Assembly (NCBI RefSeq): GCF_000758665.1
Contig: NZ_CP009285.1
Location: forward strand, 2,852,001-2,916,000
Origin: Paenibacillus borealis
Lineage (GTDB): Bacteria; Bacillota; Bacilli; Paenibacillales; Paenibacillaceae
Direction of reading: 5' to 3'
DNA: 64,000 nt
The translations under genes were made by a program, and so were the position numbers. Positions 4,123 through 60,248 of the stretch are shown here, piece by piece; within the stretch, counting starts at the first letter, position 1; each line of letters begins with the position of its first letter. The notes under the pieces were generated by a model. It was not told the DNA's origin. It saw only the letters and a list, made by a program, of their open reading frames with translations, and ran no database searches.

Positions 4123-4141
4123 GAAAGGGAGAGTGGAAACG

Positions 4142-36444: not shown

Positions 36445-36842
36445 AAAAGATTTTATGTTGTGAGGATGTTTTGCGTGTAATCTAGCGTGTGTTGGTTGGA
36501 GCAAGGGCAAGGCGCATGGGAGTGAAAACTCTATGCGTTTTTTTGTTATTCAGGACAATTTTTTTAGAAAAATCGGGACATTTTTCACTTTTCGAGTGTA
36601 TTAACCCTATTTGGGGCCGTTTGAAACGGATTTTGTCGAGATTTGTTAAGAGTTTGTTTAGAGCTGCCTGATAGAATGGATCGCAGATATGATAATTGCA
36701 GTAAATAGAATTTAATTGTTTTTGGTCCGCGGGATGGCAAGCCGAAAGGAGAATGCGGGAGCTAAGGGAGCTAATAGAAACTGCAGCGAATCTTGCTACA
36801 CGCCGGACAGGAAATGATGAACGAATAAGGGGGAGCATCACA
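36445..36842 (+). other. Leader region of the giant surface-protein operon
   Basis: About 400 bases without a supported gene. A second terminator-like hairpin (listed separately) lies at 36513-36544, well after the dck terminator. Beyond it there is AT-rich DNA, a possible -10 (TAGAAT near 36672 and TATGATAAT near 36688) without a convincing -35, and a GC-richer, possibly structured stretch (36728-36815) before the AAGGGGGAG ribosome site. No known riboswitch class is recognised. Confidence 0.5.
36513..36544 (+). terminator. Orphan terminator/attenuator hairpin upstream of the giant genes
   Basis: CGCATGGGAGT (36513-36523) pairs with ACTCTATGCG (36528-36537) around a GAAA tetraloop, followed by seven T residues. 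It ends no annotated gene. Confidence 0.75.
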
Positions 36843-39800
36843 TTGTTAATGAGCAGGAGATTGAAGAAATATACCTCGCTAAGTTTGATTCTCAGCATGT
36901 TGTTGTCGTTAATACCCGGTTCCTTTAGTGGCCTGGCAGAAGCTGCGGGTGATGATTTTGAGGTCATGTTTAGAACCGGGGCACACATCGGGAATCTGTC
37001 CTACCCCGCAGAGAATACGTTTATTAACTTTTACAATAACCAGGTGGAAGGGTTCAAGCAGACTGAGACGGATGCAGACGCCAAGTATGATTGGGCCAAG
37101 GGAGATATCTTTGCCGGTGTAGATGATAATGAAGCAACAGTCACATTTGAGGTTCGTGTAGCCGACAATCCGATTCTGAAGGAAATGGCGCTGAGCGGAC
37201 ATGCCGAGATGATTACAGGGTTTGCAGTGCTGCGGCGTCACTCTGGGTTCTTATGGACGCGTCAATCGGCAATTGAAGTGAGCATCGACGGAAAAAAGAT
37301 TATTAATGAAAGAACCGGCAGCAGTCAGAGATATAACAAATCAGCTAAGGCGATAATTAAACCTGACTCTGTCATTAGAATATGGGTATATGGCGAAGGG
37401 GATGACGATGGTGAAGCAGCGGGAGTACGCGGATTCTACCTCAAGTTCCAGGATCTCAAACGTCCCGTCATTGACAGCTATACCTTCACCGGCAACGGTG
37501 CAGAACGATTGAACGAGAATATTAATCAGAAAGAGCTGTACGTCAAAAGAGATGAGAACATCACGCTCAGCTACAATTTCAGCGAGCCGGTCAGACCGAC
37601 TTCGGTAGTGGCAGCGAACTCCGATTATTTCCTGCGGCACAAGCTGTTCATTAATGATCCGGACACCGGACTTCCGGCTGCCGGACAGCAGCAGTATCTG
37701 CAGAATACATCCTTTAATAACAGCAATTTAACTTCTTATCAGAAAATAATCTCCTACAGGTATACAGGAGTTCCTTTTCATAACAGCAGCAATCTTCCCC
37801 TGAGACCGCTAATTACCGGGGGAACCACCGGCGGAGCACCGATGGATCTGTCGCTGGATAATAAATTGAAAGAAGCCGTGCTCAGTGATGCGGCAGGGAA
37901 TAAAGCAGTTGTAAATCTCAACACTGTACCGAGCAGCGGCAGCAATGCATGGCTGAACAATAAAAGCGGAAACCCGTTTGATTTCGACAGAGGCGGCTTC
38001 CGCGTCATCGTGGATGCGGTGCGTCCGAAGTATTCCAAGACTGCTAACGGCATTCAACCGGAGATTCTGACCGGCGTTACGCTGAATAAGGGAGATGTTA
38101 TTGATTTCACCCTGCAGATGACGGAAGAGGCGATTGCCAAAACCGGCTGGGATGAGAAGAAAACCTTTATTCTTTTCAATAACGGAATGAAAGCCTATTA
38201 TGTTGCAGGCAAGAATACAAGAAATTGGAGCTTCCGTATGACAGTGCCTGACGGACTAACTGTGGAAACACCGTTGCTCAAGGCCGTCGCCGTATCTAAT
38301 GATGCCAAGGGCGGCAGTTTGCCTATCAATATGGATACGGATGTTATCCAGGATTACGCAGGCAACCTGATGATTCAGCCCGCTAACTTCGATGGAATAC
38401 ATGAAGAAGAAATTGAACCTTACGGCAGTGACTTCTCGCTCGCCAACTCTAAGATTGACTGGGCGAACCTGTTCATCGACAATACGAAACCGATTATCGG
38501 TTACCGGTTCGAGGCACAGGGCGCGAGTGATGTAGCCTATTCGAAAAAAGGTAAGGTAACGATCGATGCCAATGATCCTTCGATTAAAGTACCCCATCTT
38601 GATCCGACTGAAGCAGACCGTGGTGCAGAACGGCCGAGCCGCGGAATCTACCGGCCTTCCAATATGAGTGCGGAAGCATCGCCTTCTGTTGGACTTGTCT
38701 ACTACTGGTGGAGTCAGGATAAAGCGGATCCGTTTGCTTCTGTATCCGGAGACAATAACGCGGCACTCAAGCGTTACGCGCTCTCCGCCAAACAGCCGTC
38801 GGAAGAGCTGTATCCTGGAGAATTCGAGAATGTGCAGCTGTCTGTAGTGAATAACAAGACCAACCTGCTCTCTCCTCCGCCTGAAGCGTTCGAGGCCGGA
38901 AACAGCGGGGAATGGTATCTGCACACTTGGACAGCGGATATGACCTGGGATTCTGCCAGAGAACTGATGCAGTACGAGAAGAAAAAAGCTTATGTGGCGA
39001 GCCATCAGGCGCAGTATGACGCTTGGATCGCAGAAGCACCGGGTTCGCAGGCAGATAAAGTGTTCTATGCTGACAATCAGGCACTGGCAGCTGTTGGACA
39101 ATACGGCGACCTGAGTGTCTGGAAAGTGGACGATTTCAAACAGGACGATTCCAACTGGACCCATGAAGTGGGCATCCTGAAGCTGGACAACCAGGGACCT
39201 GCCATTACAATGGCTGCCGAGGACAACACCACTGTACAAGCTCTTGTGAAGGACCCGCATAGCGGAGTCAAGAGTGTGCAGTATCAATGGGTGAAGGACG
39301 GGGATTCTCCACAGGACATCAAGTGGGCAGATACTACCTACTCCGGTAATACCGTAACCCGGTCCACCTATGAGGATATTGATGAGGATGGCTCTTACTG
39401 GCTCTATCTTAAGGCACTCGACAATGCCGGCAACGAGACGATCAAGACACCACAGGAAAGAGCTGTTGTTGTGAGCTCGGAGGCAGCGATTCCGACACAG
39501 TTCACACCGGAAGCTAATCCTAATTATGTTAAGAGTCATGATGTCATGTTCCAGATCAGCGGAGTGACACCGGATTATGTGGGCTATGCCTTCAGCAGCA
39601 GCTCCATTCATCCAAATGAGGACAGTTCATTCACCGGACTGGATGCTGCCAAGGCATCGGATATATCACCTTTGTCTGAGAAGAAAGTGATTGAAGACGG
39701 AGCGGAATCTGCTGAGCCTGAAGCTCCAATAGAGCCGAGTACTCCGGTAGAATCGGAAGTTACGGCAAACATCGGACCGGTGGCTATCCTTAAGCTCCTG

Positions 39801-42401
39801 TCCGAAGGACCGGTTCAGCCTGAACTGACATCATTACCGGCACCAGAGAGCGGTGCCGAGCCGGCAACTACACCTGCTGCTTCAGCAGGCGCCACTGAAC
39901 CGGCAGCAGAAGCCGCAGCGGAGGCAACAGAAGATAACACGGATACCAAGCTGGCAGCGATGGGACTTAATGCTTCTGTAAGTGAAGCCACCTATAGCTA
40001 TGTCATTCCGGCTAAATCTGAACTGAACGGAACGCAATACATTCATCTTATGGTGAAGCACAGCGACAGAACGTATTACTATTCGAAAGCCTATTATTTT
40101 GACAATGAAGCACCGGTGGTGTATTTCAGCCCAGATGCTATTGCTTACCCGTTGCCGCAGCAGAAGACGCGGATCAGCGTGTCGGAATTCTATAGCAAAA
40201 CAGGACTTGTCAGCAAATATAAATGGGTCAAACAAGAAACAGGTGCAGAAGTACCTACAGAGTCTTCTACAGAATGGAAGGACGTTCCGGCAGGAGGTTC
40301 GGTGTCCATAGACGACAAATCGCTGGACGCGGGACAAATTGCTGAATACCGGTTATATGTACTCGCGGTTGACGGGGCAGGCAACAGCTCTGTGACGGCA
40401 AGCGGAGGAACTTTCAAGGTATCAGCATCTTCCAAACCGGAGGCACCTGTATCCGATGCGAAGTCTTCTCTCATCTATCTGTCCGGTGATACAGAGGATG
40501 GCTACACAGCAATTGTGAAGCTGAGCCTCGAGACAGAGGACAAAACGGGGTATGAATATTCGGTATCACCTGATAACGGTGCAAGCTGGATCAACTGGAA
40601 GCCTTATACCAACTTCGTAGCCGTGAAGGTTCCGACTGGTGATCCGACGCAGCTGCAGGTGTGGGTCAAGTACAGAACACCGGGCGGGTTGATCAGTGAA
40701 GCGGCCAAGCTTGATATCGAAGGCGCTTCTACAACCGAACAGCCAGTCTATGCGCTTGCAACGCTCAGCGTGAACAGTCCGGTAAATGCGACGGTTGGGG
40801 CAGATATTGAAATCACGCTGCCGCCGGGTATCCGTGTGATGCCTTCGAAGATTAACCCTTCGGTGCCTGTGCGGACCGGAAATTCATTCAAAATCTATGA
40901 GAATGGCTACTACAGCTTTGATCTGACCGATCTCAGTGATCCGGACCGGACAGATACCCTGTATCTGGTTGTGAAGAATATTGACGGTACGCCTCCAGAG
41001 GGAACGGTTGAATACTCGAACATGGAGCGTACGAACGGTAATGTGGTTGCTTATCTTCAGAGCACCTCTGAGCCTGTAACGATTACGAACAATGGCGGCA
41101 AAAATGCCTACACCTTCAAGGAAAATGGTACCTTCGTCTTTGAGATTAAGGACGCGGCCGGGAATACAAATACCGTCGAAGCCACGGTAAAGAACATTAA
41201 CAAAGAAGCTCCGAAGGTGAAAGTGGTCCGTTCCTACCAATATGGCCTGAACGGCAGCAGCACCTTCAATACCGTGAAGGATAATGACGGCAATGTACTA
41301 TTCTCCACCGGCACTACAGTAACGGTTGAGAAGGCAGATGCCTCGGCTAAAGCTATTAACATTATCAGTCAGGCCAAGAGCATTACACTGACTGAGAATG
41401 GAACAGCCTCCTTCACAGTTGTAGATGAGTACGGCAATACGACGGTTATTAAAGAGAAGGTTACGAATATTCTCTCCGCACCGCCTGAAGCAGATAAAAT
41501 TGCCTACACCTTTGTAGATGCGGAAGGCAAAGCGGTTCCGGCCGATCAGATTGTTACGATCGGCGGACAGAAATATGCCAAGGGTAAAGTGAAGGTTACG
41601 CTTAGCGGCAGCGTAACAGCACCTAATAAAATGTTCTTCGGAGTAAGACCAATATCAGACGGAGCGGCGTATTCGAATCAGATCAGTAAAGCTGACGGAA
41701 CGTTCAGCTACTCACGTGCCTTTGAGAGCAGCGGGTCAGCGGTAGTCGCCATCTCGGATCTTCTGGGCAATGTGAACAAGGTTCCGGTTACAATAGCGGG
41801 TCTTGATAACACACCGCCTGAGCTGACACTGAATAACGAAACAGCAGGTATTGTCCAGAACAAGAAAGACTTTAACTTCCGCGCAGATCTCGGCGGCTTC
41901 ACAGTTTCCGATAATGTATCGGAAGCAGGTAACGTGAAGGTATCAATCAGCGGGCTGGATCTGAGCAAGCTTGGGCGCCAGCGCGTAGCTTATACGGCGG
42001 TTGACCAAGTAGGGAATGAGACGGTTGTTTATCAGGATGTGGTGGTCGTGAAGGATGGCGGACTGCTGATCTTCGGTAACGATACCTTAATCTCGGCATC
42101 CTCCGGAGAGTCTGCACTGTTCAATACCAATACACTTACCTTTAAGGTATCAGGCTACAACATTATGAAGGTAGCCGGAGTAGACAAGGTCAACCAGGCA
42201 GGAACGTTTGATATTCTGTATTACCCTGGTTTGTACCGTGAAGGACAGCTGAAGCTTGTGCAGCAGAAGCTAACCTATAACGAACTTGTGAGCAGTCAAT
42301 TTAAAGTCACCTTCCCGAAAACAGGCTGGTACACCATTGTTGTGAGAACCCAGGAGCGGGACCGCGAATTTGCCACCTTCTTTATTGGCAATATGAAATA
42401 A
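36843..42401 (+). CDS. Giant secreted Ig-like multidomain surface protein, no SLH anchor
   Basis: A protein of about 1852 residues. TTG 36843 is preferred (AAGGGGGAG seven bases upstream); ATG 36849 is a close alternative. A signal peptide (KKYTSLSLILSMLLSLIPGSFSG, then AEAAG) is at the N-terminus. The remainder is extracellular: beta-sandwich segments with DNAGN, DAAGN and DGAGN motifs typical of bacterial Ig-like/cadherin-like repeats, an Ala/Glu/Pro-rich linker near residues 955-1040, and at least three C-terminal Ig-like units with ENGT-F and EYGNT/DAAGNTNTVEA motifs. No SLH repeats, LPXTG motif or C-terminal membrane helix is seen. The next gene starts 25 bp downstream. Proposed role, by inference: a partner held on the surface by the SLH proteins encoded next to it. 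Confidence 0.85.
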   Translation: MLMSRRLKKYTSLSLILSMLLSLIPGSFSGLAEAAGDDFEVMFRTGAHIGNLSYPAENTFINFYNNQVEGFKQTETDADAKYDWAKGDIFAGVDDNEATVTFEVRVADNPILKEMALSGHAEMITGFAVLRRHSGFLWTRQSAIEVSIDGKKIINERTGSSQRYNKSAKAIIKPDSVIRIWVYGEGDDDGEAAGVRGFYLKFQDLKRPVIDSYTFTGNGAERLNENINQKELYVKRDENITLSYNFSEPVRPTSVVAANSDYFLRHKLFINDPDTGLPAAGQQQYLQNTSFNNSNLTSYQKIISYRYTGVPFHNSSNLPLRPLITGGTTGGAPMDLSLDNKLKEAVLSDAAGNKAVVNLNTVPSSGSNAWLNNKSGNPFDFDRGGFRVIVDAVRPKYSKTANGIQPEILTGVTLNKGDVIDFTLQMTEEAIAKTGWDEKKTFILFNNGMKAYYVAGKNTRNWSFRMTVPDGLTVETPLLKAVAVSNDAKGGSLPINMDTDVIQDYAGNLMIQPANFDGIHEEEIEPYGSDFSLANSKIDWANLFIDNTKPIIGYRFEAQGASDVAYSKKGKVTIDANDPSIKVPHLDPTEADRGAERPSRGIYRPSNMSAEASPSVGLVYYWWSQDKADPFASVSGDNNAALKRYALSAKQPSEELYPGEFENVQLSVVNNKTNLLSPPPEAFEAGNSGEWYLHTWTADMTWDSARELMQYEKKKAYVASHQAQYDAWIAEAPGSQADKVFYADNQALAAVGQYGDLSVWKVDDFKQDDSNWTHEVGILKLDNQGPAITMAAEDNTTVQALVKDPHSGVKSVQYQWVKDGDSPQDIKWADTTYSGNTVTRSTYEDIDEDGSYWLYLKALDNAGNETIKTPQERAVVVSSEAAIPTQFTPEANPNYVKSHDVMFQISGVTPDYVGYAFSSSSIHPNEDSSFTGLDAAKASDISPLSEKKVIEDGAESAEPEAPIEPSTPVESEVTANIGPVAILKLLSEGPVQPELTSLPAPESGAEPATTPAASAGATEPAAEAAAEATEDNTDTKLAAMGLNASVSEATYSYVIPAKSELNGTQYIHLMVKHSDRTYYYSKAYYFDNEAPVVYFSPDAIAYPLPQQKTRISVSEFYSKTGLVSKYKWVKQETGAEVPTESSTEWKDVPAGGSVSIDDKSLDAGQIAEYRLYVLAVDGAGNSSVTASGGTFKVSASSKPEAPVSDAKSSLIYLSGDTEDGYTAIVKLSLETEDKTGYEYSVSPDNGASWINWKPYTNFVAVKVPTGDPTQLQVWVKYRTPGGLISEAAKLDIEGASTTEQPVYALATLSVNSPVNATVGADIEITLPPGIRVMPSKINPSVPVRTGNSFKIYENGYYSFDLTDLSDPDRTDTLYLVVKNIDGTPPEGTVEYSNMERTNGNVVAYLQSTSEPVTITNNGGKNAYTFKENGTFVFEIKDAAGNTNTVEATVKNINKEAPKVKVVRSYQYGLNGSSTFNTVKDNDGNVLFSTGTTVTVEKADASAKAINIISQAKSITLTENGTASFTVVDEYGNTTVIKEKVTNILSAPPEADKIAYTFVDAEGKAVPADQIVTIGGQKYAKGKVKVTLSGSVTAPNKMFFGVRPISDGAAYSNQISKADGTFSYSRAFESSGSAVVAISDLLGNVNKVPVTIAGLDNTPPELTLNNETAGIVQNKKDFNFRADLGGFTVSDNVSEAGNVKVSISGLDLSKLGRQRVAYTAVDQVGNETVVYQDVVVVKDGGLLIFGNDTLISASSGESALFNTNTLTFKVSGYNIMKVAGVDKVNQAGTFDILYYPGLYREGQLKLVQQKLTYNELVSSQFKVTFPKTGWYTIVVRTQERDREFATFFIGNMK

Positions 42402-42425
42402 ATGAACGATAAACAGGGGGAATAC

Positions 42426-45400
42426 ATGGTGAAGCTGCTCAAACGCGCTACCGCGCTCATGCTCACAATAATCATGGTATTTCTGTCCACCTCCGAGAGC
42501 TTTCATGCGCTTGTGGAGGCGGCCAGCAGTACAAAGACAACCGTTGTACAGAATAACTTTATTAAGGTTACTGTGGATAATGAAACCGGACGCTACGGGA
42601 TCCGGACCGTGGATGGCCAGCCCATCCGCAAGAATGACAACAACGTAAACTTGCTGTTCCAGGGTGATGATCCGGAAACGTCGTTCACGACGTTCCGGAT
42701 TGACGGAACCGATTATATTTACGGGAATAAGTACAAGTTTGACAACAGTCATTATTCAGAGACTACTACACCCAAGGTGGTAGAGAATTCGAATGGCACG
42801 AAGCAGCTGGAGATGATCTGGAAGATTAAAGGCGTAGAGATTAAGCAGATTCTGATGCTCTACACCGACAGCAAGGATGCTGTCAATTCCGGAAATGTCA
42901 ACATCCGCTATGAAGTGAACAACCGGAGCAATGCGCAGGTTGAGATCGGAAGCCGGATCCTGCTGGATACGATGGTCGGCGGAAACGACGGGCCGCAGTT
43001 CCAGATTGGCACAGCTTACAAGTCACCGCTGCAGGTAGAGCGGAAGCTGGTGCATAATCCGGAGGATGATGCCGGAATCCCGGAAGAGGACAGAGCTTAC
43101 TTCAAGATTCCTTCTTACTGGGTAATGCGCGACAAGCTGGATTTGACGAATCCTCAGGCAACCAATGTCGTCGCCTACGGCTTCAATAACTTTGCCGAAC
43201 AGAACATTAATATTGTGGATGAAATGATTGTCGGGCATTGGAACGGCCTGGCGAATACGAAATGGGATTATCAAGTACATCCCAACCTGGACTTCACTAG
43301 AGATACCAATGATTACGGCACGGCGGACTCCGCCGTCGCCTTCTATTGGAACCCGGAGAAGCTGGCAGCCGGAGGCTTCCAGAGCTTCGAGACTGTCTAT
43401 GGGCTTGGAGAAATTACCGCTCCGGATAAAGTATTCTCGATCCGTTATGTAGATCAGGTTCAGCAGCTGGCTACGGCGGATCTGGAAGAAGGAGAGACGG
43501 TTCCGTCGAAGTACGAGGACAACGGAGTTTTCACAATCACTGCAGAGGTTGAGAATCTGCAGGCCTACAATATGGAGCACTCCAAGATCGAAGTGGAGAT
43601 GACGCTGGAGAGCGACCTCAGCTTCGTCAGGCAGGATGAGAGCGGCAAAGACGTCATGGACGCAAGTGGCAATCCTGTCCTGGAGAATGACCGCAGCAAA
43701 ATGCTTGAATTCAAAAAGTCAGCCTCTCCTGAGGAAGCTGCATTGGGAATTGAGCCGAAGTACAAGCCGGGTGATGCCATCACTGCGACTTTCCGTGTTC
43801 AGGCTAAAGGCAGACCTTGGCCGGTAACGCGGGATTACATGATTTCCGCGAGAAGCCCGGAAACACAGGGCAAGATTGAGGGCATTGAGGATGAAGGCAT
43901 CAAAGCCCAATATGAGTCGAACCGTACAAACTTCATTCTGCTGCCGCCGGTAGGCGAAGCAACGGCTACGTATTCATACGCTCTGTCACCGGCAGAGCTG
44001 TATAGCTCAGATGTGAAATATCTGACTGTGAATCTGTCGAACATTGAAGCCTATAATACGGGCAATGCAACCACAGCACCGAACTTTGACCTGTACCTCA
44101 AGGATCTGGTATCCGGAAGCCGGTACAAGGTGAATGTGCAGGATGCAGTGGTTATGCAGCCTACAGACGATGGTTTCTCAGGTGCCATGCGGATTACTTA
44201 CCGCGGCGGGGAACGGGTTGATGAAGGCGGCAATGTGCTGGAATCCGGACTGGGACCTGAGCTGCCGCTGGGTGAATACGCAGTTGAGATCGACTATAAA
44301 GGCGATGCCGGAGGCGACGAGGAAGTAGCAGCACTTTACGATATTACTACCCCGCAATCCTTCCTGGTTACAGATAATGATGAGACGCGGATCCGTGAAG
44401 CCGGAGTTATGGCTGTGTACAGGGAAGCTGTGGATATCAGCGGCCTCGCGAACGGCGCCTCTGTAAAGGATGAATTGCTGGATCAGCTGAACTCGCTGTT
44501 CCCGGGTGAGCCATTCAAGAACGGCTCGTTCCTGTACTCTGCTGTCACCGAGTATAAGAAGACCAAGGCCTTGTTCGGAGCAGCCAGCAAGGCGGTTGAT
44601 CCTGAATTTGATATCAGTGAATTCATGGATGATGAAGCGCTCAAAGAGACTCCACTGTATGCCTACAAATTGTTTGCAACAGAAGAGGACTTTGAAGCCT
44701 TCCAGGAAGAAGCAGAATCCGAGGACCCGGAATTCGACCGTGAGGTTCTGGTTACGGTCCGCGGAATGATCAAGCAGGTCGGCACGGGTGAAGAAGAGCA
44801 GGTCATCGTGGATACCAAGACAGAACCGGCAATTATTAATGATGCTGTTGCATATACAGGCAAGGATCTGGCTTTTGTACGCGGCAAGCTGGACATCTTC
44901 GGAAATAGCCTTCCGGGCGATCTTCCCTTCCTGGATACCTTGTTCATCAAGGGTGACGGAACGCTCAGTGTAGCGAGCAGCGGGTTCGTCTTCCATAAGG
45001 GCGAATGGACGCTGGATTTCTTCAACGGCTTCTCCAAATCCCTTGGAGATGAGAACTACAATCCGTCCAAGGTGGAGACGCCAGAGGATGACGATGAAGA
45101 GGAAGAAGGCAGTAAGGAAGATAAAGGCAATGACGGTAATCCGGAAGACGACAGCCAGAACGGCAGTCTGAAATGGGCCATCGGCGGTGTGGGCGACAGA
45201 CTGAATCCGCTGCGCCAGGTCATGATCGGGGATGTGTACTTCAACAAGCAGTCTTTGTTTGGGGCTCCAAGCTTCGCGATTGACGGCTTCGGCTTCTCCT
45301 TCAATGATTTCATTCTGAGAGAGAATGGTATATCCTTCGGCGGTTCGCTGTCCCTGAAGATCATTAATTCAGAAATTAAGAATGTAATATTCAACAGCGC

Positions 45401-50216: not shown

Positions 50217-50297
50217 CAGGAATGTGCCCGTACCGCCTATTGTGGAGTGCGGGCACACTCTGCTGGAAATTCACAATACTATTTGGGTGGTGTCAAA

Positions 50298-53200
50298 ATG
50301 GCTTTGAAGCGGAAATCAATTATAGGGTATCTAATCGCGCTGGCAGTGGTTGTCGTTGCGGCAGTTGCCGGCGGAATCATGGCCAAGGCTGATCCGCAGA
50401 CCTGGGACAGCCAAGCTGATACCAACTGGTATGTAGCGACCAATGATACCTTCAAAATTAATAGTGAAGAAAAGCTTGCGGGTGTTGCCAAGCTGGTTAA
50501 TGAAGGCACTGGGAATGGTCTGCAAGGCAAAATTCTTGAAATTACGCGAGACATGGATCTCAAAGACTATCAATGGATTCCCATTGGTACAGCCGAGCAT
50601 CCATTCAAGGGTACTCTGATCACTGAAGGTGGTCTAATCAAGAAAATCTCCAATATGAATGTCGTTACAAATTTGTCCTATCAGGGTCTGGTAGGAAATA
50701 TGGAGGGCGGGACAGTCGGCGGTCTGACTTTTGAAGGGGCTGGCTCCATCACTGTCACCGCTGTAACCTATGATGTATATGCAGGCTCCGCAGTAGGTAA
50801 AATGAGCGGCAGCAGCATTGTTTTTGATATTACCAACAATATTAATATCAGCACTCATGCATCCCCGTACCACTCCTACACGGGCGGAATTGTCGGAATG
50901 GGCGCAGGCATGATCTCTAACTCTATCAACAACGGAACCATTACGGCGCAAGGTTCAGCTGATATCGGCGGAATTTTGGGCTACGGAGATTCCAGAGGCA
51001 TCATCATCAAAAAAGTTGTAAATAACGGAGCAATTCTCGCACAAGGTACTGGCAGTGCGGCAGTGACTGCCGGCGGGATTGCAGGTCATACTACAGGACC
51101 GCTTAGCCTTAGTGATGAAGATACTCCAATCACCAATACTGCTTCTGTTACGATTACTGGCGGAAACCAGGTTACGGCAGGCGGGATTGTCGGTAAAGTA
51201 GACAACACCGTAGTATTCTCTAACATGACTACCAATAATGGTGCGATTTCGGTTAATGCACCTGCGGCAGAAGGCTCAGCAGCCGGAGCGCTTGTAGGGG
51301 CAACCGGTACGGTTGCCAGTCCACCGGTAAATATTACGTTTGTAAATACCGCTCCGGTAGTGAATAACGGCGGCAAGAATGTATACACCGCAGGAATTGC
51401 CGGATACACCGGCAGTAAATTCACCTGGACACATGCGTATGTTAACACGCAGCCGATTACAGCTACAGGTACACAAAATATATCTACAGGCGGATTTGTC
51501 GGACATGCTGCAGGCGGACTGGTAACCAGCAACGCCACAGCGGCAGCGTTTGAGAATACAGCGCTTATCTCTGTTAACGGGGGAACAGCGGTATACACCG
51601 GTGGTATTACGGGTTATGATGCCGGCGGGAATATGAGTCAGGCCTCCTCCACAGGTGCACTGAATGTAAAAGGTACAGCGGATGTATACACCGGCGGTAT
51701 CGTAGGGTATGAAGTCGGCGGAACGATTACATCATCAGTAACCGGCAAAACCGCAAACGATCTTCTGGCGATAACTTCAGATGGTACAATCGGCGGAATC
51801 GCCGGTTATCTGGAAGGTACCCTGAATGATTCTTCTGTTAAATATGCAACACTGCAGGTAACTTCTGCAGGCGGGGTTATCGGCGGAATTGCCGGCAATG
51901 CACAAGGAACCATGAACAACATCACTGCTGGTGATGCTTCCTCGGCAAGCTACAGCACGTTAATTCTGAAAGCTGTGGTGGCTGCTCCGGCAGACGGCCA
52001 GGACAATATCACGTTCGGCGGCCTTGTAGGCGTGAACACTATGCCACTGGTTCTGGACGGCGGCAAGGCTGCCCGGATCAGCTTCCTGAATGAAGCCGGC
52101 AAAAGCGGATATACCATTGGCGGCGCAGCAGGTAAGCTTACTGCAGATGCAGAAATCGGTACTGTGGCCGTACCTGTGGAAGTGCAGGATATACAAGTTG
52201 AGCTGAAGGCAGATAAGGTAAGCTTCGGCGGCGGCGCAGGGAATAACTCGGCTGCCAAGTTCAATGGACACACGAGCCGTACTGAAATCAAGGCTACAGG
52301 CGCTTCGGTAAAAGCAGGCGGAATGTTTGGTGAGAACCATTCAGCAGCGCTTTCTCCAACTCATGCGGAGAATGTAGTCATCACCGCAACAGGGGCGGAC
52401 TACCAGCTTGGCGGTAATACCGGTCTCAATACCGGACAGCTGGTCAATGCTAAAGTTACTCAACTGTCTATTGAGGCAAAAGGTGTGCGCGCTGAAGCCG
52501 GCGGGATTGCCGGGCATTCGGAAGGAACGGCTGATCCGGCTGGCCGGGCAGGAATTACGTCAGCTGTGCTGAATGTTCCCGGGGATGCCCCGATGATTAC
52601 GCTGGCTGCTGCGGAATCCAAAGCAGGAGCGATCGTAGGGGCTGCGAAAACTACGGATATCAAAGATCCGGAAGTGAACGCAGAGGACGGAGCCCAGCTG
52701 ATCATCCAGGCGCAAGCAGCTAAACCGTCAGTCGGCGGCTTGGCAGGTGCACTTGAGAACAGCGCTATCTACAGTGACAGCAAAATAGTGAATCTGGAAA
52801 ATACGCTGATTCTGGTAGCGCCAGCCGCTACGGATGCCTATATTGGCGGTATTGTGGGTTATAACGAAGCCTCCAGACTGGAACGGCTGGTAGGAACGGC
52901 AGTTAGTCTGACGCTTAATGCACCGCGCGCTACTGCAGGCGGGGTTGCCGGATATAACCACGGCAGTTCTTCGGGAATTATTGCGAACAGTTATATTAGT
53001 TCCCTGAATCTGAAAGCTAACGCCGGAGCGGTATCGTCAATGATCGGGGGGATTGTGGGCTTGAATGCTGCCCAGACCATTGATCCCGTATTGAATCCCG
53101 CTACAGCGGTTAGTACGATCCAGAATACCCGTACACTGGGGACTGTATCCGCTGTTTCACCTACTTCAATCGTGGGCGGAATGGTTGGGGAGAACCGCAG

Positions 53201-56200
53201 TCTGATTGCCAACAACAGTATTACTGATAAGATCACGGTAATCTCAAGAGGCGATTCTTCCATCATCGGCGGTTTGGCCGGTGTAAATACTGCATCAGGA
53301 ACGCTTTATTACACCTATTCCAATGCTAACCTGACCATTGAGGGTACAGGTACTCATGCTGGCGGATTAGCCGGGGAGAATGCAGGGGCAGTTATTGGTT
53401 CTTATGTAGATATCGACGTTACCGGCAACGCGAAAGGAACAGCAAGCGGTTCGGTCTATCTGGGTGGACTGATCGGCAGAAATACGGCCGGTACGGTGGA
53501 GCAATCCTACTCCTCCTCCAAGGTTACGGCGAACGGCGTATATACAAATGTTGGCGGTCTGGTCGGGGAACACTCCGGCGGGAACATCAAGAACTCTTAC
53601 GTTGCAAAAAGTGTAGCGGCTACCAAAGCTAATTCATACGTCGGCGGTTTCATCGGCAGAATTACGAACGGTAAAGTAAGCAATGTATACTCGGCGGCAG
53701 AAGTTACTGCCGGTCCGGGCGCTTATGCCGGCGGTTTCGCCGGACGTTATGACAATGCAAGCAAAGAACTTCTCTACAAGTCTTATTACATTAAAGATGA
53801 AGCACTGAACATCAACAGTGATCTGCCTGATTTCGCTGAAGGCAATCACCGCTGGCTGAACGTGCATGTCCGTCTGACCACGATCCTGTCCGAAACGCTG
53901 AAGGACAGAAGCGTCTTCCCGGGATTGTCAGGCTGGGATTTTGAAGGCGCCTGGAAATACGGCTCGCTTAACGCGGTATACCAATATCCTGAGGTGAACC
54001 GTGCAGCTAATACCGGCGGTGAAACCGGCAATGAGGTCAATGCCAATATCAACTGGTATATGAAGGATAAGAATGCCATTGGATTCCAGATTACTACTGA
54101 AGCGGAGCTTGCGGGTCTTGCGGGCATCGTCAACGGATCTATTGCCGGAGTAGACAAATTCGACTTTGCGGACAGAACGGTGACGATTATGAATCCGATC
54201 CATATCCAGTCCAAACAGTGGGTGCCTATCGGCGATAAGGAAGCGAATCCTTTTGAAGGAACCCTTGAAGGAAACAATCACCTGATTGACGGTTTGACTC
54301 TGCAGCCTGTGTACAAGTATTCCGGATTGTTCGGAGTCATCGGTACGAAGGCAATAGTGCAGAATATCAATCTGGAGCCGCTCTCTGTTTCCGGCAACCA
54401 GTACACGGGAGTCCTTGCCGGGACAAACCTGGGTACTGTGAACAACGTGGATCTTAAGCTGCTTGGCGGCGTGAAGGTCAGCGGCGGGATTGTCGGAGGC
54501 ATTATCGGCCAGAACTCAGGCAGTATTGCAGGCCTGCAGCTTACACTGGACGGCGGAAGCCGGATTGAAACAGTCGCTGACCACGGTATTGCCGGTGGGC
54601 TAATCGGTGAGAATACAGCAGATTTCACAAAAGAGACTTATACAATTACGGATAAAGACGGAAGCATCGGCAGCGCTGCTGACCATGCTATTGTCGGCGG
54701 GCTTATCGGAGTCCAGACGGGTGATGTAACGGGTCTTAAGCTTGAAGTGAATTCGCGTTACCGGGTTTCGGCTACGGGAATGGAATCCACTGTCGGCGGA
54801 ATGATTGGACAGTTCACTTCAGGCCAGGCTAAGGATCTTACGCTGACCTTCGCAGACGGAACGCTTGAAGCACGCGGACTCGGCTCGATTCTCGGCGGAA
54901 TCATCGGCCAATCGGATGCCGGAAACAGCATCAGCAATGTCACAGTGACAGGCTTCGGAAGCGGTGTGCAGTTGACCGCCAACGGTACTGCCGGTGGTGT
55001 TGTAGGCGTTAAAGAAGGCAAGCTGGGCGGAATGTTAGCCCGGTCCATTGATCCAGGGAACAGCTTTGATATCGATCATGCAGTAGTTGCAGGCGTGAAG
55101 CTGGTTACGACTGGCGACAGCCTGAAGGCAGTACTCGGCGGGATTGCCGGATCGGCAGCCCATACGGCGGTCAATGATGTCCGGTTCAATGCTTCTTTGC
55201 AGGCCGCAGGGGAAGCCATTACTGCCGGAGGTATCCTGGGAGAGAGTGTGAATTCTATCCTGTACAATGCGGATGCGTCACCTGATCTTCAGGTTGCAGC
55301 GAAGAACGGCGATGCAGCAGTCGGCGGGATCGCCGGAACGGTCTCTGCGGATGATATCCACCGGGGCTATGATTTCGGCAAAGCCTATCCGCTGTACAGC
55401 GGCATTTACATTGCCAAAGTTCATAACGGCAAAATAACGGTCACTGGGGCAGATAATACTGCTGACCTCTATGTGGGCGGTGTGGCAGGCAAGAACGACA
55501 ATGCCTCAATCTATAGTTCTGAGGTTGCTTCCGAGCTGAATGTAACCGGCGGAAACACAGTGAATGCAGGCGGAGTTGCCGGATACAGCAGCGGTATCAT
55601 TGTAGATACCATCGTGAAGACCGGTCTGCATGCGGATACCAGCAGAGTGTATAATGCCGGCGGACTTGTCGGCTGGGGATCAGGCGGCGAGATTCATTAC
55701 AGCAAGGTGATCGCCGGATCTGGACAAGCTCTGACGGTTGGCACAGCGTTAACGCTGGGTCAATCTGTACCGGCGACACATGCCGGCGGGGTAACCGGTA
55801 TGGGGGATACAATCAGAATTACGCATACCCATGCGGATATTCCGGTACTGATTACAGATACCAACCAGGACAATACTATCTATGCGGGCGGCTTTGCCGG
55901 ACTTCTGGGTGATAACGGTACGCTTGCCGGACAAATCCAGAAATCCTATGCAACAGGCAAGCTGAACGTCAGCGGCAAATTAGGCTCTTATGCCGGCGGC
56001 TTCGCCGGTTCAGCAGATCATTATTCGATTACGGATTCTTATGCGTCCGGTGACATCAGCAATACCGGCTTCGATACACGCAGCGGCGGTTTCGCAGCAG
56101 CGGTGGAGAGAAGCGGCAGCATCAGCAATTCTTACGCGTTGCAGAACAAGATTTCTACAGTCGGAGTGAAGTCTTCGACCCGCTCTTACAACGGTGGCTT

Positions 56201-59006
56201 TGCCGGTTATAATGACGGGACTCTGACAGGCGTCTATGCCAATGTTCCGGAGATTTCAGTTAATGTAGCAGGCAATAACGTCTCTACAGGCGCGCTGGTC
56301 GGCTATAACTTCCGGGATGGCAAAATTTCCGGTTCGTCGTATACGACAGGTACGCTGACGGCAGGACTGAATGCTGTAGGCCATAACGCAGGTGCGGCAG
56401 CGGGCGCTGTGAGTTCAGCGGCGGTTAATCCGCTTAGCTCGGGCACATGGGTTATCGATTATGACACCACATTCCTGAACGATCTGACTGACGGAACAAT
56501 TACGGTTCAGACCCCGCTGCAACTCTCGGGTGCAGTCATGTTCTATAACGAGACAGGGCTGAATTATTACAAGCTGTTCAACAGAACAGCTGAAGACAAA
56601 CCGGAGCTGGCAACCATCCTGGTTGGAGCGGATATTAATCTTGCCGGAAGCACTTGGACCGCTTTCGACAGCTTCAAGGGAGTGTTTGACGGTCAAGGTC
56701 ATACGATTAGCGGACTTTCACTGAAATCCCCAGAGCAGCAGACAGCCGGATTCATTAAAGAAAACCACGGTCAGATTCTGAATGTGAACTTTACCGGAGC
56801 GGATATTTCCGGCGCAGTAAATTCCGGTGTTGCTGCAGGGATCAATCATGCAGGCGCAGTAATCCAGAATGTTAACGTCAGTGGTTCCGTAGCTGGCAGT
56901 GCCACAGCAGGCGGAGCAGCAGGTGTGAATCAAGGCAGCATTGAGAAGGCTGCTAATGACGGAGTTTCTCTTTCGGGACAAGGCCGTAAAGGCGGAATTG
57001 CCGGACGCAACGCCGGAGTCATTCACCAGGCAGTGTCCAAAGGCAATATTGATGTTACTGCCACACTGGCAACCGGCGGAATAGCTGGTGAGAACAGTGC
57101 GGAAGGTACAATTTCAGAGTCGATTGTCTATGGCGATATCCATGTGGCTTCGGCCCAGGCTATAGCCGGAGGGATCAGCGGTCTGAACGCGGGAGAGATC
57201 AAGAACAGCTATTCTGCCGGTGCCATTTACGCAGAAGGAATGTCTACAGCATGGGCTGGCGGTATCGCCGGTCTGGCGGAGAGCGGATCTATTACTTCTT
57301 CCCTGAATACCGGAGAAGTGAAAGCTGGTGTGAAAGGTAAAATTCTGCCGCTGCAGGCCTTCTTCGGAGGGATAGCCGGACAGAAGTCAGACCATGCAAC
57401 CATCAGCCAGTCCTTATTCAACAGACAGATGCTGAAGAATAATATTGCCTTCTACAATCTGGATGGCCAAGCAGTAGCCGGCAACAGCAGCAGTGCAATG
57501 GGGCTGCTTGGCACAGAGCTTACCAGCCCGAATCTTCCGGCAGGTCTGGATGCCGGAATCTGGAAAGCACAGAACACATTCTATCCGGCGCTTCTGGCCT
57601 TTGACGGAACAGAAGAAGGAACTCTTGCTTCAGCGGCTGTTATACTGAACCCGCAGGATCTGATTAACCGTGTGGGTTCGGCATTCAACTTGAGCGGCAG
57701 CGGAGCACTGGGTTGGAGCGCAGATCCGTCCAAGGCTGAAGTGAACGGTGCTGCAGGAAGCTTGAAACAGGGCGGCAGCGCAGTACTGAAGGCAACAGCA
57801 GGAGGACAGAGCAGAAGCATTACAGTTAATGCAGCTGCACTGCAATACCCGGATCCGGCCGCTATCGCACCAGCTGCAACACCTGAGGAGCTGAGCTTCT
57901 CGGCGGAAGTGAAGGTAGAGCTGACAACAGCGGAGCCGGGCGGCCAAATTTATTACACGCTCGACGGCACAGATCCTACCGAAGCTTCTCAGCTATACAG
58001 TGAAGCGATTGTACTGAAGGACAAGACAACTGTTAAAGCAATCACCATTGTTCCGGGCAAAGAGTATAGCAAGGTATCGGCCTGGACCTGGACGCTGTTA
58101 GTTTCCAGCGGCGGAGGCGGCGGCGGTGGTGGTGGTGGTGGCGCTGTACCGGCCCCAACTCCGACTCCGACCCCTGTTCCGGTGATTACCGCTATTGCCG
58201 GCACTACGACGGTGAACGGAGACAGTGAAGCTCCAGTGAAGATTGCCAAGAACAGCAAGCTGAAGCTGACAGCTCCAGAAGGGCAAACGATCTACTATAC
58301 AACGGACGGAAGTACACCGACATTAAACAGCATGAAATACACCGGTGAGCTGTTGATTACCAAGACCATGACGATCAAAATGATCACAGATAAAGATGAT
58401 ACTGTGACCACCATTGATTATGTAGTGGAGAATGCCAAGTACAGCCTGAAGAGCAACGCAGGAGAAATTAAGTATATCGCTGCTTATCCGAATGGTTTGT
58501 TTATGCCTAATGCAGCCATTACCAGATATGAGCTGATCCAATCTCTTGCTCCGCTGCTGGATATGGAAGAAGTGAATGTAGGAAACCTGTTCAATGATGT
58601 AAGTGCAGGCAACGAGGCTTTGACCGGATTCTTCGCTTCGGCAGGCATAATTGAAGGCTATCCGGACGGCGGCTTCGGAGGAACGAAGAGCTTGACGAGA
58701 GCCGAGTTCTCCAAGATCATGACTACAGTGCTGAAGCTGGATGTTACAGCGGCCGGAGTTACGAAGCAATCGGATCTGAAGGGCCACTGGTCAGAGAATT
58801 ATGTCAACGCGCTGTCCAAAGCGGGTTATGTGCAAGGCTTCCCTGACGGTACCTTTAAGCCGGGATCACCGATTACCCGTGCTCAGGCTGTAGTGCTGAT
58901 CAACCGGATCGCCGGTACGAAGAAGCTGACTGTAACAGCTGTACGGTTCAAGGATCTACCGGCAACACACTGGGCATACAAAGATATCATGTCGGTTGTG
59001 CAATAA
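50298..59006 (+). CDS. Giant SLH-anchored GLUG-repeat beta-helix protein
   Basis: A protein of about 2902 residues. ATG 50298 with GGGTGGTG upstream gives a signal/anchor (KRKSIIGYLIALAVVVVAAVAGGIMAKA). About 55-60 GLUG-type motifs (GGIVG, GGLAG, GGFAG) run to about residue 2430 and should form right-handed beta-helix. They fall in three blocks starting near residues 35, 1250 and 2064; the first two start with TNWYV/INWYM, a W(I/V)PIG motif and a PF-GTL cap. Two chitobiase-C-like domains (about 2528-2600 and 2653-2711; YYTLDGTDPT and YYTTDGSTPT) flank a poly-Gly and TPTPTP linker. SLH repeats end the protein, the last ending abruptly at KDIMSVVQ. Probably an adhesin or large surface scaffold; ligand unknown. 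Confidence 0.9.
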   Translation: MALKRKSIIGYLIALAVVVVAAVAGGIMAKADPQTWDSQADTNWYVATNDTFKINSEEKLAGVAKLVNEGTGNGLQGKILEITRDMDLKDYQWIPIGTAEHPFKGTLITEGGLIKKISNMNVVTNLSYQGLVGNMEGGTVGGLTFEGAGSITVTAVTYDVYAGSAVGKMSGSSIVFDITNNINISTHASPYHSYTGGIVGMGAGMISNSINNGTITAQGSADIGGILGYGDSRGIIIKKVVNNGAILAQGTGSAAVTAGGIAGHTTGPLSLSDEDTPITNTASVTITGGNQVTAGGIVGKVDNTVVFSNMTTNNGAISVNAPAAEGSAAGALVGATGTVASPPVNITFVNTAPVVNNGGKNVYTAGIAGYTGSKFTWTHAYVNTQPITATGTQNISTGGFVGHAAGGLVTSNATAAAFENTALISVNGGTAVYTGGITGYDAGGNMSQASSTGALNVKGTADVYTGGIVGYEVGGTITSSVTGKTANDLLAITSDGTIGGIAGYLEGTLNDSSVKYATLQVTSAGGVIGGIAGNAQGTMNNITAGDASSASYSTLILKAVVAAPADGQDNITFGGLVGVNTMPLVLDGGKAARISFLNEAGKSGYTIGGAAGKLTADAEIGTVAVPVEVQDIQVELKADKVSFGGGAGNNSAAKFNGHTSRTEIKATGASVKAGGMFGENHSAALSPTHAENVVITATGADYQLGGNTGLNTGQLVNAKVTQLSIEAKGVRAEAGGIAGHSEGTADPAGRAGITSAVLNVPGDAPMITLAAAESKAGAIVGAAKTTDIKDPEVNAEDGAQLIIQAQAAKPSVGGLAGALENSAIYSDSKIVNLENTLILVAPAATDAYIGGIVGYNEASRLERLVGTAVSLTLNAPRATAGGVAGYNHGSSSGIIANSYISSLNLKANAGAVSSMIGGIVGLNAAQTIDPVLNPATAVSTIQNTRTLGTVSAVSPTSIVGGMVGENRSLIANNSITDKITVISRGDSSIIGGLAGVNTASGTLYYTYSNANLTIEGTGTHAGGLAGENAGAVIGSYVDIDVTGNAKGTASGSVYLGGLIGRNTAGTVEQSYSSSKVTANGVYTNVGGLVGEHSGGNIKNSYVAKSVAATKANSYVGGFIGRITNGKVSNVYSAAEVTAGPGAYAGGFAGRYDNASKELLYKSYYIKDEALNINSDLPDFAEGNHRWLNVHVRLTTILSETLKDRSVFPGLSGWDFEGAWKYGSLNAVYQYPEVNRAANTGGETGNEVNANINWYMKDKNAIGFQITTEAELAGLAGIVNGSIAGVDKFDFADRTVTIMNPIHIQSKQWVPIGDKEANPFEGTLEGNNHLIDGLTLQPVYKYSGLFGVIGTKAIVQNINLEPLSVSGNQYTGVLAGTNLGTVNNVDLKLLGGVKVSGGIVGGIIGQNSGSIAGLQLTLDGGSRIETVADHGIAGGLIGENTADFTKETYTITDKDGSIGSAADHAIVGGLIGVQTGDVTGLKLEVNSRYRVSATGMESTVGGMIGQFTSGQAKDLTLTFADGTLEARGLGSILGGIIGQSDAGNSISNVTVTGFGSGVQLTANGTAGGVVGVKEGKLGGMLARSIDPGNSFDIDHAVVAGVKLVTTGDSLKAVLGGIAGSAAHTAVNDVRFNASLQAAGEAITAGGILGESVNSILYNADASPDLQVAAKNGDAAVGGIAGTVSADDIHRGYDFGKAYPLYSGIYIAKVHNGKITVTGADNTADLYVGGVAGKNDNASIYSSEVASELNVTGGNTVNAGGVAGYSSGIIVDTIVKTGLHADTSRVYNAGGLVGWGSGGEIHYSKVIAGSGQALTVGTALTLGQSVPATHAGGVTGMGDTIRITHTHADIPVLITDTNQDNTIYAGGFAGLLGDNGTLAGQIQKSYATGKLNVSGKLGSYAGGFAGSADHYSITDSYASGDISNTGFDTRSGGFAAAVERSGSISNSYALQNKISTVGVKSSTRSYNGGFAGYNDGTLTGVYANVPEISVNVAGNNVSTGALVGYNFRDGKISGSSYTTGTLTAGLNAVGHNAGAAAGAVSSAAVNPLSSGTWVIDYDTTFLNDLTDGTITVQTPLQLSGAVMFYNETGLNYYKLFNRTAEDKPELATILVGADINLAGSTWTAFDSFKGVFDGQGHTISGLSLKSPEQQTAGFIKENHGQILNVNFTGADISGAVNSGVAAGINHAGAVIQNVNVSGSVAGSATAGGAAGVNQGSIEKAANDGVSLSGQGRKGGIAGRNAGVIHQAVSKGNIDVTATLATGGIAGENSAEGTISESIVYGDIHVASAQAIAGGISGLNAGEIKNSYSAGAIYAEGMSTAWAGGIAGLAESGSITSSLNTGEVKAGVKGKILPLQAFFGGIAGQKSDHATISQSLFNRQMLKNNIAFYNLDGQAVAGNSSSAMGLLGTELTSPNLPAGLDAGIWKAQNTFYPALLAFDGTEEGTLASAAVILNPQDLINRVGSAFNLSGSGALGWSADPSKAEVNGAAGSLKQGGSAVLKATAGGQSRSITVNAAALQYPDPAAIAPAATPEELSFSAEVKVELTTAEPGGQIYYTLDGTDPTEASQLYSEAIVLKDKTTVKAITIVPGKEYSKVSAWTWTLLVSSGGGGGGGGGGGAVPAPTPTPTPVPVITAIAGTTTVNGDSEAPVKIAKNSKLKLTAPEGQTIYYTTDGSTPTLNSMKYTGELLITKTMTIKMITDKDDTVTTIDYVVENAKYSLKSNAGEIKYIAAYPNGLFMPNAAITRYELIQSLAPLLDMEEVNVGNLFNDVSAGNEALTGFFASAGIIEGYPDGGFGGTKSLTRAEFSKIMTTVLKLDVTAAGVTKQSDLKGHWSENYVNALSKAGYVQGFPDGTFKPGSPITRAQAVVLINRIAGTKKLTVTAVRFKDLPATHWAYKDIMSVVQ

Positions 59007-59037
59007 TTTGTAGTTCTTTTATGAAGGAGATTGGCGG

Positions 59038-59727
59038 ATGAAAACAAAACTGCTTGCCGTAAGCCTGATCTTCTCTTTGATCTCGGCGGTGCTCTTCTAT
59101 TCAGGCACTACCAGCGCCGATACACCAAGCGTGTATAACGCTGAACAGAGCTACGGAATTGCGAATGAAGCCATGTTCTATCTGCGGGTACTCAAAAGTG
59201 ACGGTACCGCAAGTTCCACGGGGACAGGAATTATCCTGTCACCGGCCGGAACAGCGGCAACGGCGTATCACGTGGTCAAAGGTGCAGAGCGGATGGAAGG
59301 GGTGATGGCAGATGGAAGTATTATCAGTCCGATTAAGGTCACGAAATTCGATGAGCTTAAGGATGTGGCAGTCCTTGAACTGCCAAGTCCTGCTGCTATG
59401 AAGCAGAAGGGCAATGCATATGCATATCTTCCTCTGCGCAAAGACGTGCTGAAGCATGGAGAAGCTGTATTCGCACTGGGCTATCCGCTTAAGAATACAG
59501 CGATTATCACCGAAGGGATTGTCAACACGCCTGCTGCGGAGATCAACGGAAGAAGCCGGATTCTGACTTCGGCCCAGGTGGCAAGCGGGATGTCCGGAGG
59601 TCCGCTGTTGGATACGCATGGCCAGCTTGCGGGAATTATCTCCGGTTCTCTGCGGACGATGAATAACATTCATCTGGTTGTAAATATGGAGGATCTGCGC
59701 AGCCTGCTGCCGGCATCCTTCAAGTAG
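59038..59727 (+). CDS. Secreted trypsin-fold serine protease
   Basis: A 229-residue chymotrypsin-fold (S1C-like) protease without a PDZ domain. The signal peptide ends near residue 27 (TTSA-DTP). The triad is intact: His78 (TAYHVV), Asp109 (KDVAVLEL) and Ser186 (SGMSGGPL). It has an AAGGAG ribosome site and starts 31 bp after the giant GLUG protein, so it belongs to the same operon. A role in processing or quality control of the giant surface proteins is inferred from this position only; no cleavage site was identified. Confidence 0.9.
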   Translation: MKTKLLAVSLIFSLISAVLFYSGTTSADTPSVYNAEQSYGIANEAMFYLRVLKSDGTASSTGTGIILSPAGTAATAYHVVKGAERMEGVMADGSIISPIKVTKFDELKDVAVLELPSPAAMKQKGNAYAYLPLRKDVLKHGEAVFALGYPLKNTAIITEGIVNTPAAEINGRSRILTSAQVASGMSGGPLLDTHGQLAGIISGSLRTMNNIHLVVNMEDLRSLLPASFK

Positions 59728-59782: not shown

Positions 59783-59828
59783 GCTGTCCTCTGACGTTTG
59801 GAGCAAACGCGGGGACAGCACTTTTTTT
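59783..59828 (+). terminator. Terminator of the giant surface-protein operon
   Basis: GCTGTCCTC (59783-59791) pairs with GGGGACAGC (59811-59819), enclosing an inner stem GTTTG/CAAAC, followed by seven T residues. A shorter AGCGGC/GCCGCT hairpin precedes it near 59740-59766. Confidence 0.92.
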
Positions 59829-59885: not shown

Positions 59886-60248
59886 ATGATCAAGGCATTT
59901 CTGCTGGATATGAACCAGAAGGATCTCTATAAGCTGTCTTCCATGCTGCAGCATACAGGCAAGGTGAATGTGATTGGAATGTCGGCCTATCCCGAGAATG
60001 TTGTGGACAAAATTGTTCTGCTGCAGCCGGATGTACTGTTTCTGGATCTTCAGCTGCCCGGCCAGCAAGGAATGGTTGTAGCCGAACGGGTAAAAAAGAA
60101 GCTGCCGGATATTCAGATTGTGATTGTTACAGAGAGCAAACAGCATGCCCTGTGGGCCTTCGACCAAGACATTGTGGATTATGTGCTGAAGCCGCTGGAG
60201 GAGGTCCGCCTGGGCCAGTCACTCGAACGGCTGCATAAGGGTAGCTGA
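59886..60248 (+). CDS. Stand-alone response-regulator receiver protein
   Basis: A 120-residue single receiver domain with no output domain. The phosphoacceptor is Asp54 in LFLDLQLPG, the conserved Thr is in VTES and the Lys in YVLKPLE. The acidic pocket has one Asp (LLDMNQ) where most receivers have two acids, so Mg binding may be altered. The fold and the LKPLE end resemble receivers of LytTR-type regulators. GGAAGGAGGAGG precedes the ATG. It lies after the giant operon's terminator and before patB, with no kinase nearby. Confidence 0.87.
   Translation: MIKAFLLDMNQKDLYKLSSMLQHTGKVNVIGMSAYPENVVDKIVLLQPDVLFLDLQLPGQQGMVVAERVKKKLPDIQIVIVTESKQHALWAFDQDIVDYVLKPLEEVRLGQSLERLHKGS

Follow-up and report, generated by a model that had tools for sequence, protein, structure and literature searches.

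A row of neighbouring genes whose products are very large extracellular proteins has been described in Apilactobacillus kunkeei, whose Giant1-5 are 3,000-8,000 aa long, with N-terminal beta-solenoids in four of them and a reported co-evolution of two (PMC12863079, from its abstract). A single SLH-anchored surface protein of Paenibacillus alvei, SlhA (1335 aa), alters swarming and biofilm when knocked out (PMC3776848, excerpt). As for gene expression, SRPS in the cip-cel operon are the nearest known use of intercistronic stem-loops that we found (PMC4423207, excerpt), and the excerpts at hand on SARP-regulated promoters give a simple rule, in which direct repeats recur every 11 bp and 8 bp lie between the 3′ repeat and the -10 (PMC10936776), the repeats being heptamers separated by 4-nt spacers (PMC5930380). 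The open-licence full-text literature in PMC provided such analogues only and no description of the cassette analysed here; the available part of the paper on Paenibacillus sp. LS1, the strain of locus L148, mentions SLH once, in a figure legend (PMC10269863).

The cassette, a block of 23 kb, lies in the 8,156,808-bp single-contig genome of Paenibacillus borealis, in a window of 64,000 nucleotides (the whole stretch of DNA analysed). The initial annotation had noticed three giant tandem genes followed by a small protease and a terminator, an arrangement borne out by the ORF coordinates, the gaps between the genes and a hairpin with seven T (Table 1).

The gene block and its products

Table 1. 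Features of the cassette and its immediate surroundings, in window positions
Feature	Position	Strand	Description
Predicted operator/promoter	36646-36677	+	TTAAGAG-TTTG-TTTAGAG, 8 bp, TAGAAT (-10)
G1	36843-42401	+	1852-aa secreted protein; SLH absent
G2	42426-50216	+	2596-aa secreted protein; 3 C-terminal SLH stretches
G2-G3 intercistronic hairpin	50217-50265 (core stem 50224-50256)	+	U-tract absent
G3	50298-59006	+	2902-aa secreted protein; GLUG repeats, Fn3_assoc/CHB_HEX_C, SLH
PR	59038-59727	+	229-aa secreted HtrA-type serine protease, PDZ absent
Intrinsic terminator 3′ of PR	59783-59828	+	
Stand-alone response-regulator receiver domain	59886-60248	+	adjoins cassette

All four genes lie in tandem on the same strand, separated by 24, 81 and 31 bp (G1-G2, G2-G3 and G3-PR, respectively). 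The open frame of G1 extends up to an ATG at 36753, and the RBS-like AAGGGGGAG, picked out by eye, suits a start at TTG 36843 or ATG 36849. Downstream of PR the unit is closed by a hairpin (59783-59819) followed by 7 T, a hairpin missing from the output of a simple scanner. The block is not a chance arrangement, because in dozens of species orthologues with about 33-100% identity have similar lengths and stand in the same tandem arrangement; among named relatives, P. phytohabitans is the closest found (G2 96%). Rfam returned no match for the window at the gathering cut-off, and none up to E 1 for the surroundings of the G2-G3 hairpin.

The initial placement of SLH in the last two giants and not in the first agrees with Pfam, which finds three stretches in G2, two in G3 and none in G1. 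In its model, G1 forms a string of Ig/Fn3-like domains over residues 190-930; its top Foldseek match is the S-layer protein 7ptp (E 2e-8, TM 0.14), alongside which the adhesin SiiE ranks. G2 combines a conserved N-terminal part with a beta-meander core at about residues 650-1330. No catalytic carbohydrate domain passed the Pfam cut-off in G1, G2 or G3, and Pfam found no cohesin or dockerin modules in any of the four window proteins. Against the PDB, profiles of the giants recovered SLH, CHB_HEX_C and a weak match of GLUG to an IgA1 protease; the remaining rows were weak and chance-like and were discarded. The structure alignments A4 and A5 comprise 41 and 32 of 44 chosen rows, respectively, the latter excluding distant G1 rows. 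The genome itself is rich in SLH, with 150 SLH-domain matches among those scored, of 202 candidates.

PR matches Trypsin_2 (1.2e-22), a Do-family model covers its residues 54-200, and HtrA structures match too. The catalytic His/Asp/Ser are invariant across 10 aligned orthologues. Neither Pfam nor NCBIfam scans found a PDZ domain, and in the listed NCBIfam models of HtrA type PR stays under the cut-off. The receiver domain beyond the terminator (120 aa, output domain absent) follows PR in relatives as well and is retained beside the deletion of genome G028 described below (L189 2450-2812); it is possibly a partner or a remnant.

Inheritance, gene order and loss

According to four scans of 100 genus genomes, the own genome counted, one and the same set of 30 genomes carries full-length relatives of each of the four proteins, and 69 have a full-length orthologue of none of the four, with general HtrA matches (6 genomes), partial G1 matches (4) and SLH-only matches of G2 and G3 set aside and G063 counted as a carrier though its G2 is split. 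The remaining genome, G028, bears a scar: in a single ORF, roughly the first 95 codons of the G1 frame are joined to the part of PR that starts near residue 106, and both flanks share 90-95% identity with the flanks in G006. A fused G1-PR remnant between matching flanks argues that the whole set was lost in one piece. The possibility that the four genes occur independently in relatives, raised in the initial annotation, is thus at odds with the synteny, since all 30 carriers hold all four.

A GTDB-wide scan yielded 67 loci, nearly all from Paenibacillaceae by title, together with MAGs labelled Eubacterium and Oscillospiraceae. The order G1-G2-G3-PR is found in 34 loci (including four with extra or split ORFs), and another 11 show G1-G2-G3 with PR cut off or slightly beyond, PR being downstream in 6/6 of these with sufficient DNA. 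PR-G1-G2-G3 accounts for 14 loci, including L130 with a split G1 and the doubtful L159, whose 'G3', an SLH piece of 391 aa, probably represents the terminal part of a split G2; L159 may therefore lack G3 and is nonetheless counted as PR-first with G3 in the hairpin, HK/RR and operator tallies. PR-G1-G2 without G3, followed by unrelated sequence, makes up six loci, and two are fragments (L116, L163). Named relatives display G1-G2-G3-PR, PR-G1-G2-G3 or PR-G1-G2, and G080 and G083 hold both layouts together. Genes are split in the drafts of L112, L130, L132/G063 and L134. The linkage of the four genes thus survives reordering and ends in joint loss in G028; G3 is missing in 6/67 loci.

Several local peculiarities accompany these loci. 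The PR-G1 gap of L127 (1344 bp, the largest seen) contains a transposase-like ORF on the opposite strand (3264-4376; TnpB/OrfB-like by eye), and short tandem-repeat, minisatellite-like ORFs occur at L130 2730-3677 (WLGYWSGER...) and L202 1384-2286 (HFCPSFL...).

In wider scans, the G2 core was found in 71/394 genomes of a family scan (G212, G331 and G349 via a distant relative only) and in 7/398 genomes of a phylum scan. In the six distant loci read (G008, G212, G343, G404, G460, G463) a G1-like giant directly precedes the G2-like one in 6/6; the G1-like matches there are weak, with a best E per locus of 7e-6 to 1e-27, and lie within Ig-like regions or repeats. In G008, G212 and G343 the G2-like protein ends in a Dockerin_1 over the cut-off, and the next protein encoded is a smaller one with SLH. 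Reading covered 3/3 of the distant loci from the phylum scan and three of the paralogous G2-like loci from the family scan (16 genomes). Each of these three (L179 3819-17944, L185 248-14472, L187 309-14485) holds a trio of G1-like protein, dockerin-ended G2-like protein and SLH protein, the last being 532-552 aa long with a cohesin-like N-terminus. A cohesin assignment was rejected in favour of 'cohesin-like', the Pfam values of 0.0037 (L179) and 0.011 (L187) being under the cut-off; Pfam gave no cohesin match in L185, and the PDB none for L179. A dockerin with a separate SLH protein suggests that the anchor may be retained in another way, and this supports a role of G2 as the partner that is anchored. 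Overall, G1-G2 appears to be the widest core of the cassette.

Operator, candidate regulators and intercistronic hairpin

The predicted operator upstream of G1 lies in a block nearly invariant across five aligned relatives. A heptamer repeated with an 11-bp period (6 or 7 of 7 equal) and placed 7-10 bp before TANNNT occurs in 59 of 66 first-gene regions, hits that represent 33 distinct strings with relatives counted repeatedly; two of the seven regions missed (L135, L164) have the repeat slightly outside the scanned stretch. Control periods of 8-10 and 12-16 bp were found in 1-10 of the 66. Single repeat-to-TANNNT gaps of 8, 9, 10, 11 and 12 bp gave 35, 52, 58, 50 and 32 of 66; the period is sharp across loci and the distance from repeat to -10 is broad, partly because the repeats extend beyond seven bases. 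The window-type motif (at least 10 of 12 positions) is present in 28/66 regions vs 0.18% of shuffles. It was first spotted in the window clade, and the controls for period, gap, position and internal genes were applied afterwards to all loci. A sigma-70 scanner returned near-chance counts (18 vs 16.4 and 11 vs 7.2) and left the conserved promoter unlisted.

Where G1 comes first, the operator stands upstream of G1 in 41/45 loci, G2 in 2/45, G3 in 0/46 and PR in 1/34; where PR comes first, it precedes PR in 17/20, G1 in 0/20, G2 in 1/20 and G3 in 0/14, the background tiles containing 10/576 and 43/3956. The repeat is thus found before G1 or PR, whichever is first, and the promoter therefore holds the head position of the unit. 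An element conserved before the first gene and rarely internal speaks against separate conserved promoters, a possibility left standing by the initial annotation, and the co-transcription proposed there is, as far as sequence can tell, well supported by this promoter-like head element together with co-inheritance.

HK and RR homologues flank the cassette in 26/67 loci: 10 G1-first, 10 PR-first with G3 and six G3-less, the pairs of the last group being divergent. All three scanned kinases have a hybrid architecture (HisKA, HATPase, receiver, His_kinase), and 7TMR-DISM_7TM exceeds the cut-off in two of them. All nine response regulators scanned contain a receiver; BTAD exceeds the cut-off in six (L127, L139, L130, L129, L147, L110), falls under it in L117 and has no match in L159 or the truncated L148, and Trans_reg_C exceeds it in L110 alone. 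A quick tree of 27 RRs (the 26 loci and L193) sorts them into groups that share a heptamer (TGAGAGA-like, TAAGGTT or GTTTATT/TTTATTG), L117 standing on its own, and comes with a warning of long branches (L159, L117, L193) and a doubtful deep join. The repeat was not found for L130 and L193. L129 and L147 have the G1-first order, yet their RRs group with the regulators of PR-G1-G2 (type III) loci, sharing 49-50% identity with a type III regulator vs 28% with a type II one, and their heptamer is also the type III one; the operator therefore tracks regulator clade, not gene order. No dedicated HK/RR adjoins the window cassette, whose clade has the downstream stand-alone receiver only; elsewhere in the window genome there are eight BTAD matches, and the three best HK homologues each lie beside one.

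With one mismatch allowed, the operator pattern occurs at two sites only in the window genome (8.16 Mb). The second (L202 4929-9750) is located 57 bp upstream of the gene for a Big_5/SLH protein of 1577 aa, which has a BNR-like N-terminus and Ig-like repeats. Across the genus the exact pattern has 62 sites in 35/100 genomes, compared with one match for a reversed control. It precedes 27/28 G1-first cassettes (G024 being the exception) and the G028 scar, which leaves 34 sites, 19 of them examined. Large ORFs start 29-164 bp downstream of 17 of these 19, 17/17 with SLH over the cut-off, two also with BslA (biofilm surface layer) and two with CBM_X2; the other two sites stand ahead of shorter ORFs (332 and 98 aa), the SLH scan having covered the 17 large ORFs. 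In L216 (G047) and L217 (G025) the protein that follows the same operator class combines SLH with a BslA domain at its C-terminus. A further operator-like site, some 0.6-1 kb ahead of the cassette (L221 672-703, also G059 and G095), precedes, in L221, a 98-aa membrane-like ORF. Together these sites reveal a small regulon in Paenibacillus whose members are surface proteins with SLH.

The second conserved element follows G2. In 41/47 G1-first loci (median -4.4) the 70 nt past its stop are more stably folded than shuffled sequence (z < -2), compared with 3/14 PR-first loci with G3 and 3/6 G3-less loci, and a T-rich tail (at least 5 T in 8) is found in 5/47 G1-first loci. Median energies over the 60 nt past the stop are -28.6 for G2, -11.0 for G1, -9.5 for G3 and -13.4 for PR, the gap lengths being different. 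In the 39-row alignment A6, 12/14 pairs changed on both sides, with 102 double-changed cells vs 34.8 in shuffles and far lower values in slid controls; A6 represents 39/47 G1-first loci and excludes L113, L125, L132, L138, L141, L154, L162 and L163, several of which (L163 apart) had a weak, displaced or missing hairpin, so that the exclusion flatters the covariation.

A proposed surface assembly and its nearest relatives

The reading that we favour, at a probability of roughly 70%, is a co-regulated multi-protein surface assembly with a G1-G2 core, encoded by a single SARP-type-controlled unit with an optional G3 and a dedicated PR. Inheritance as a unit, the head promoter class, the match of operator and regulator, the covariation of the hairpin, the intact catalytic triad and the SLH anchors support it. 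The whole block would form one transcript unit, turned on by a SARP-type (BTAD) response regulator presumed to bind the operator. G2 would be the wall-anchored core, its SLH holding the assembly outside the cell wall, and G1, an anchorless Ig/Fn3 chain, may be kept at the surface through binding to G2. G3, the second SLH-anchored protein, is probably an optional binding arm with GLUG repeats, PR a secreted protease that may mature or quality-control the giants, and the hairpin after G2 probably tunes the ratio of G1-G2 to G3-PR via protection of the upstream mRNA. The role in adhesion or as a scaffold and the action of PR on the giants are suggested by anatomy and linkage.

It is important to point out that the giants might instead be independent surface proteins, co-regulated neighbours that need not join in one complex, with PR as a general surface protease. 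The presence of the operator class ahead of other SLH proteins (17/19 examined sites) would then mark a surface programme rather than one complex, in a genome with 150 SLH matches among those scored; we consider this unlikely, given that tandem linkage is kept through reordering, that the genes are jointly present or absent genus-wide and that G1 has no anchor of its own. A substrate-handling assembly, binding polysaccharide or the like in the manner of a cellulosome scaffold rather than serving adhesion, seems similarly doubtful: the paralogous version points that way, its G2-like protein carrying Dockerin_1 and the SLH protein next to it giving a sub-threshold cohesin match, as do CHB_HEX_C/Fn3_assoc in G3, whereas Pfam finds neither a catalytic carbohydrate domain over the cut-off in the giants nor dockerin or cohesin in the four window proteins. 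That the giants build an S-layer, a paracrystalline outer coat, is very improbable in spite of their SLH anchors and the top Foldseek match of G1 to 7ptp, since the spread is patchy (30/100 genus genomes), three different proteins of 1852-2902 aa are involved, TM-scores are low and the adhesin SiiE ranks beside 7ptp.

The co-regulated assembly on a G1-G2 core remains our preferred reading, and a bolder version of it can be put forward only tentatively. G1-G2 might be the core of an unrecognised Bacillota surface machine older than Paenibacillaceae, in which a barrel-like or hydrophobe-shielding body, formed by the beta-meander of G2 outside a single-membrane cell, receives a docking G1, arms such as G3 or the dockerin-SLH anchor are swapped, and the protease and a 7TM-kinase/SARP-type system make the whole inducible.

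Three anonymous giant ORFs become a defined unit with named parts, and experimental handles are at hand in the 18-bp operator, the candidate regulator pair, the hairpin, the catalytic residue of the protease and a natural deletion. Conservation here allows the partners of giant proteins, and the elements that control them, to be read off. The results also suggest that SARP-type control, familiar from Streptomyces antibiotic genes, governs surface architecture in Bacillota.

Compared with described systems, the cassette shares with Giant1-5 the succession of very large genes for extracellular proteins and is set apart from them by description, not by sequence; the abstract on Giant1-5 mentions no SLH anchor, protease or regulator (PMC12863079). 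SlhA is likewise an SLH-anchored surface protein of Paenibacillus, compared by description, and is a single protein (PMC3776848, excerpt). PR resembles the HtrA/DegP trypsin-like proteases in its trypsin-like domain with His/Asp/Ser and differs in being small, PDZ-less and encoded alongside giants. Like SRPS, the G2-G3 hairpin is a stable stem-loop that sits where an upstream gene ends, inside an operon for a surface complex (a proposed one here), and it is mostly devoid of a U-tract; for SRPS the excerpt deals with processing site and transcript ratio, whereas the hairpin here is known from its sequence (PMC4423207). The window copy of the operator closely resembles SARP-regulated promoters, with heptamer direct repeats of 11 bp and 8 bp to the -10; the cases cited in the excerpts concern Streptomyces antibiotic genes, whereas here the element precedes surface giants of Paenibacillaceae and is paired with a candidate receiver-BTAD response regulator (PMC10936776, PMC5930380).
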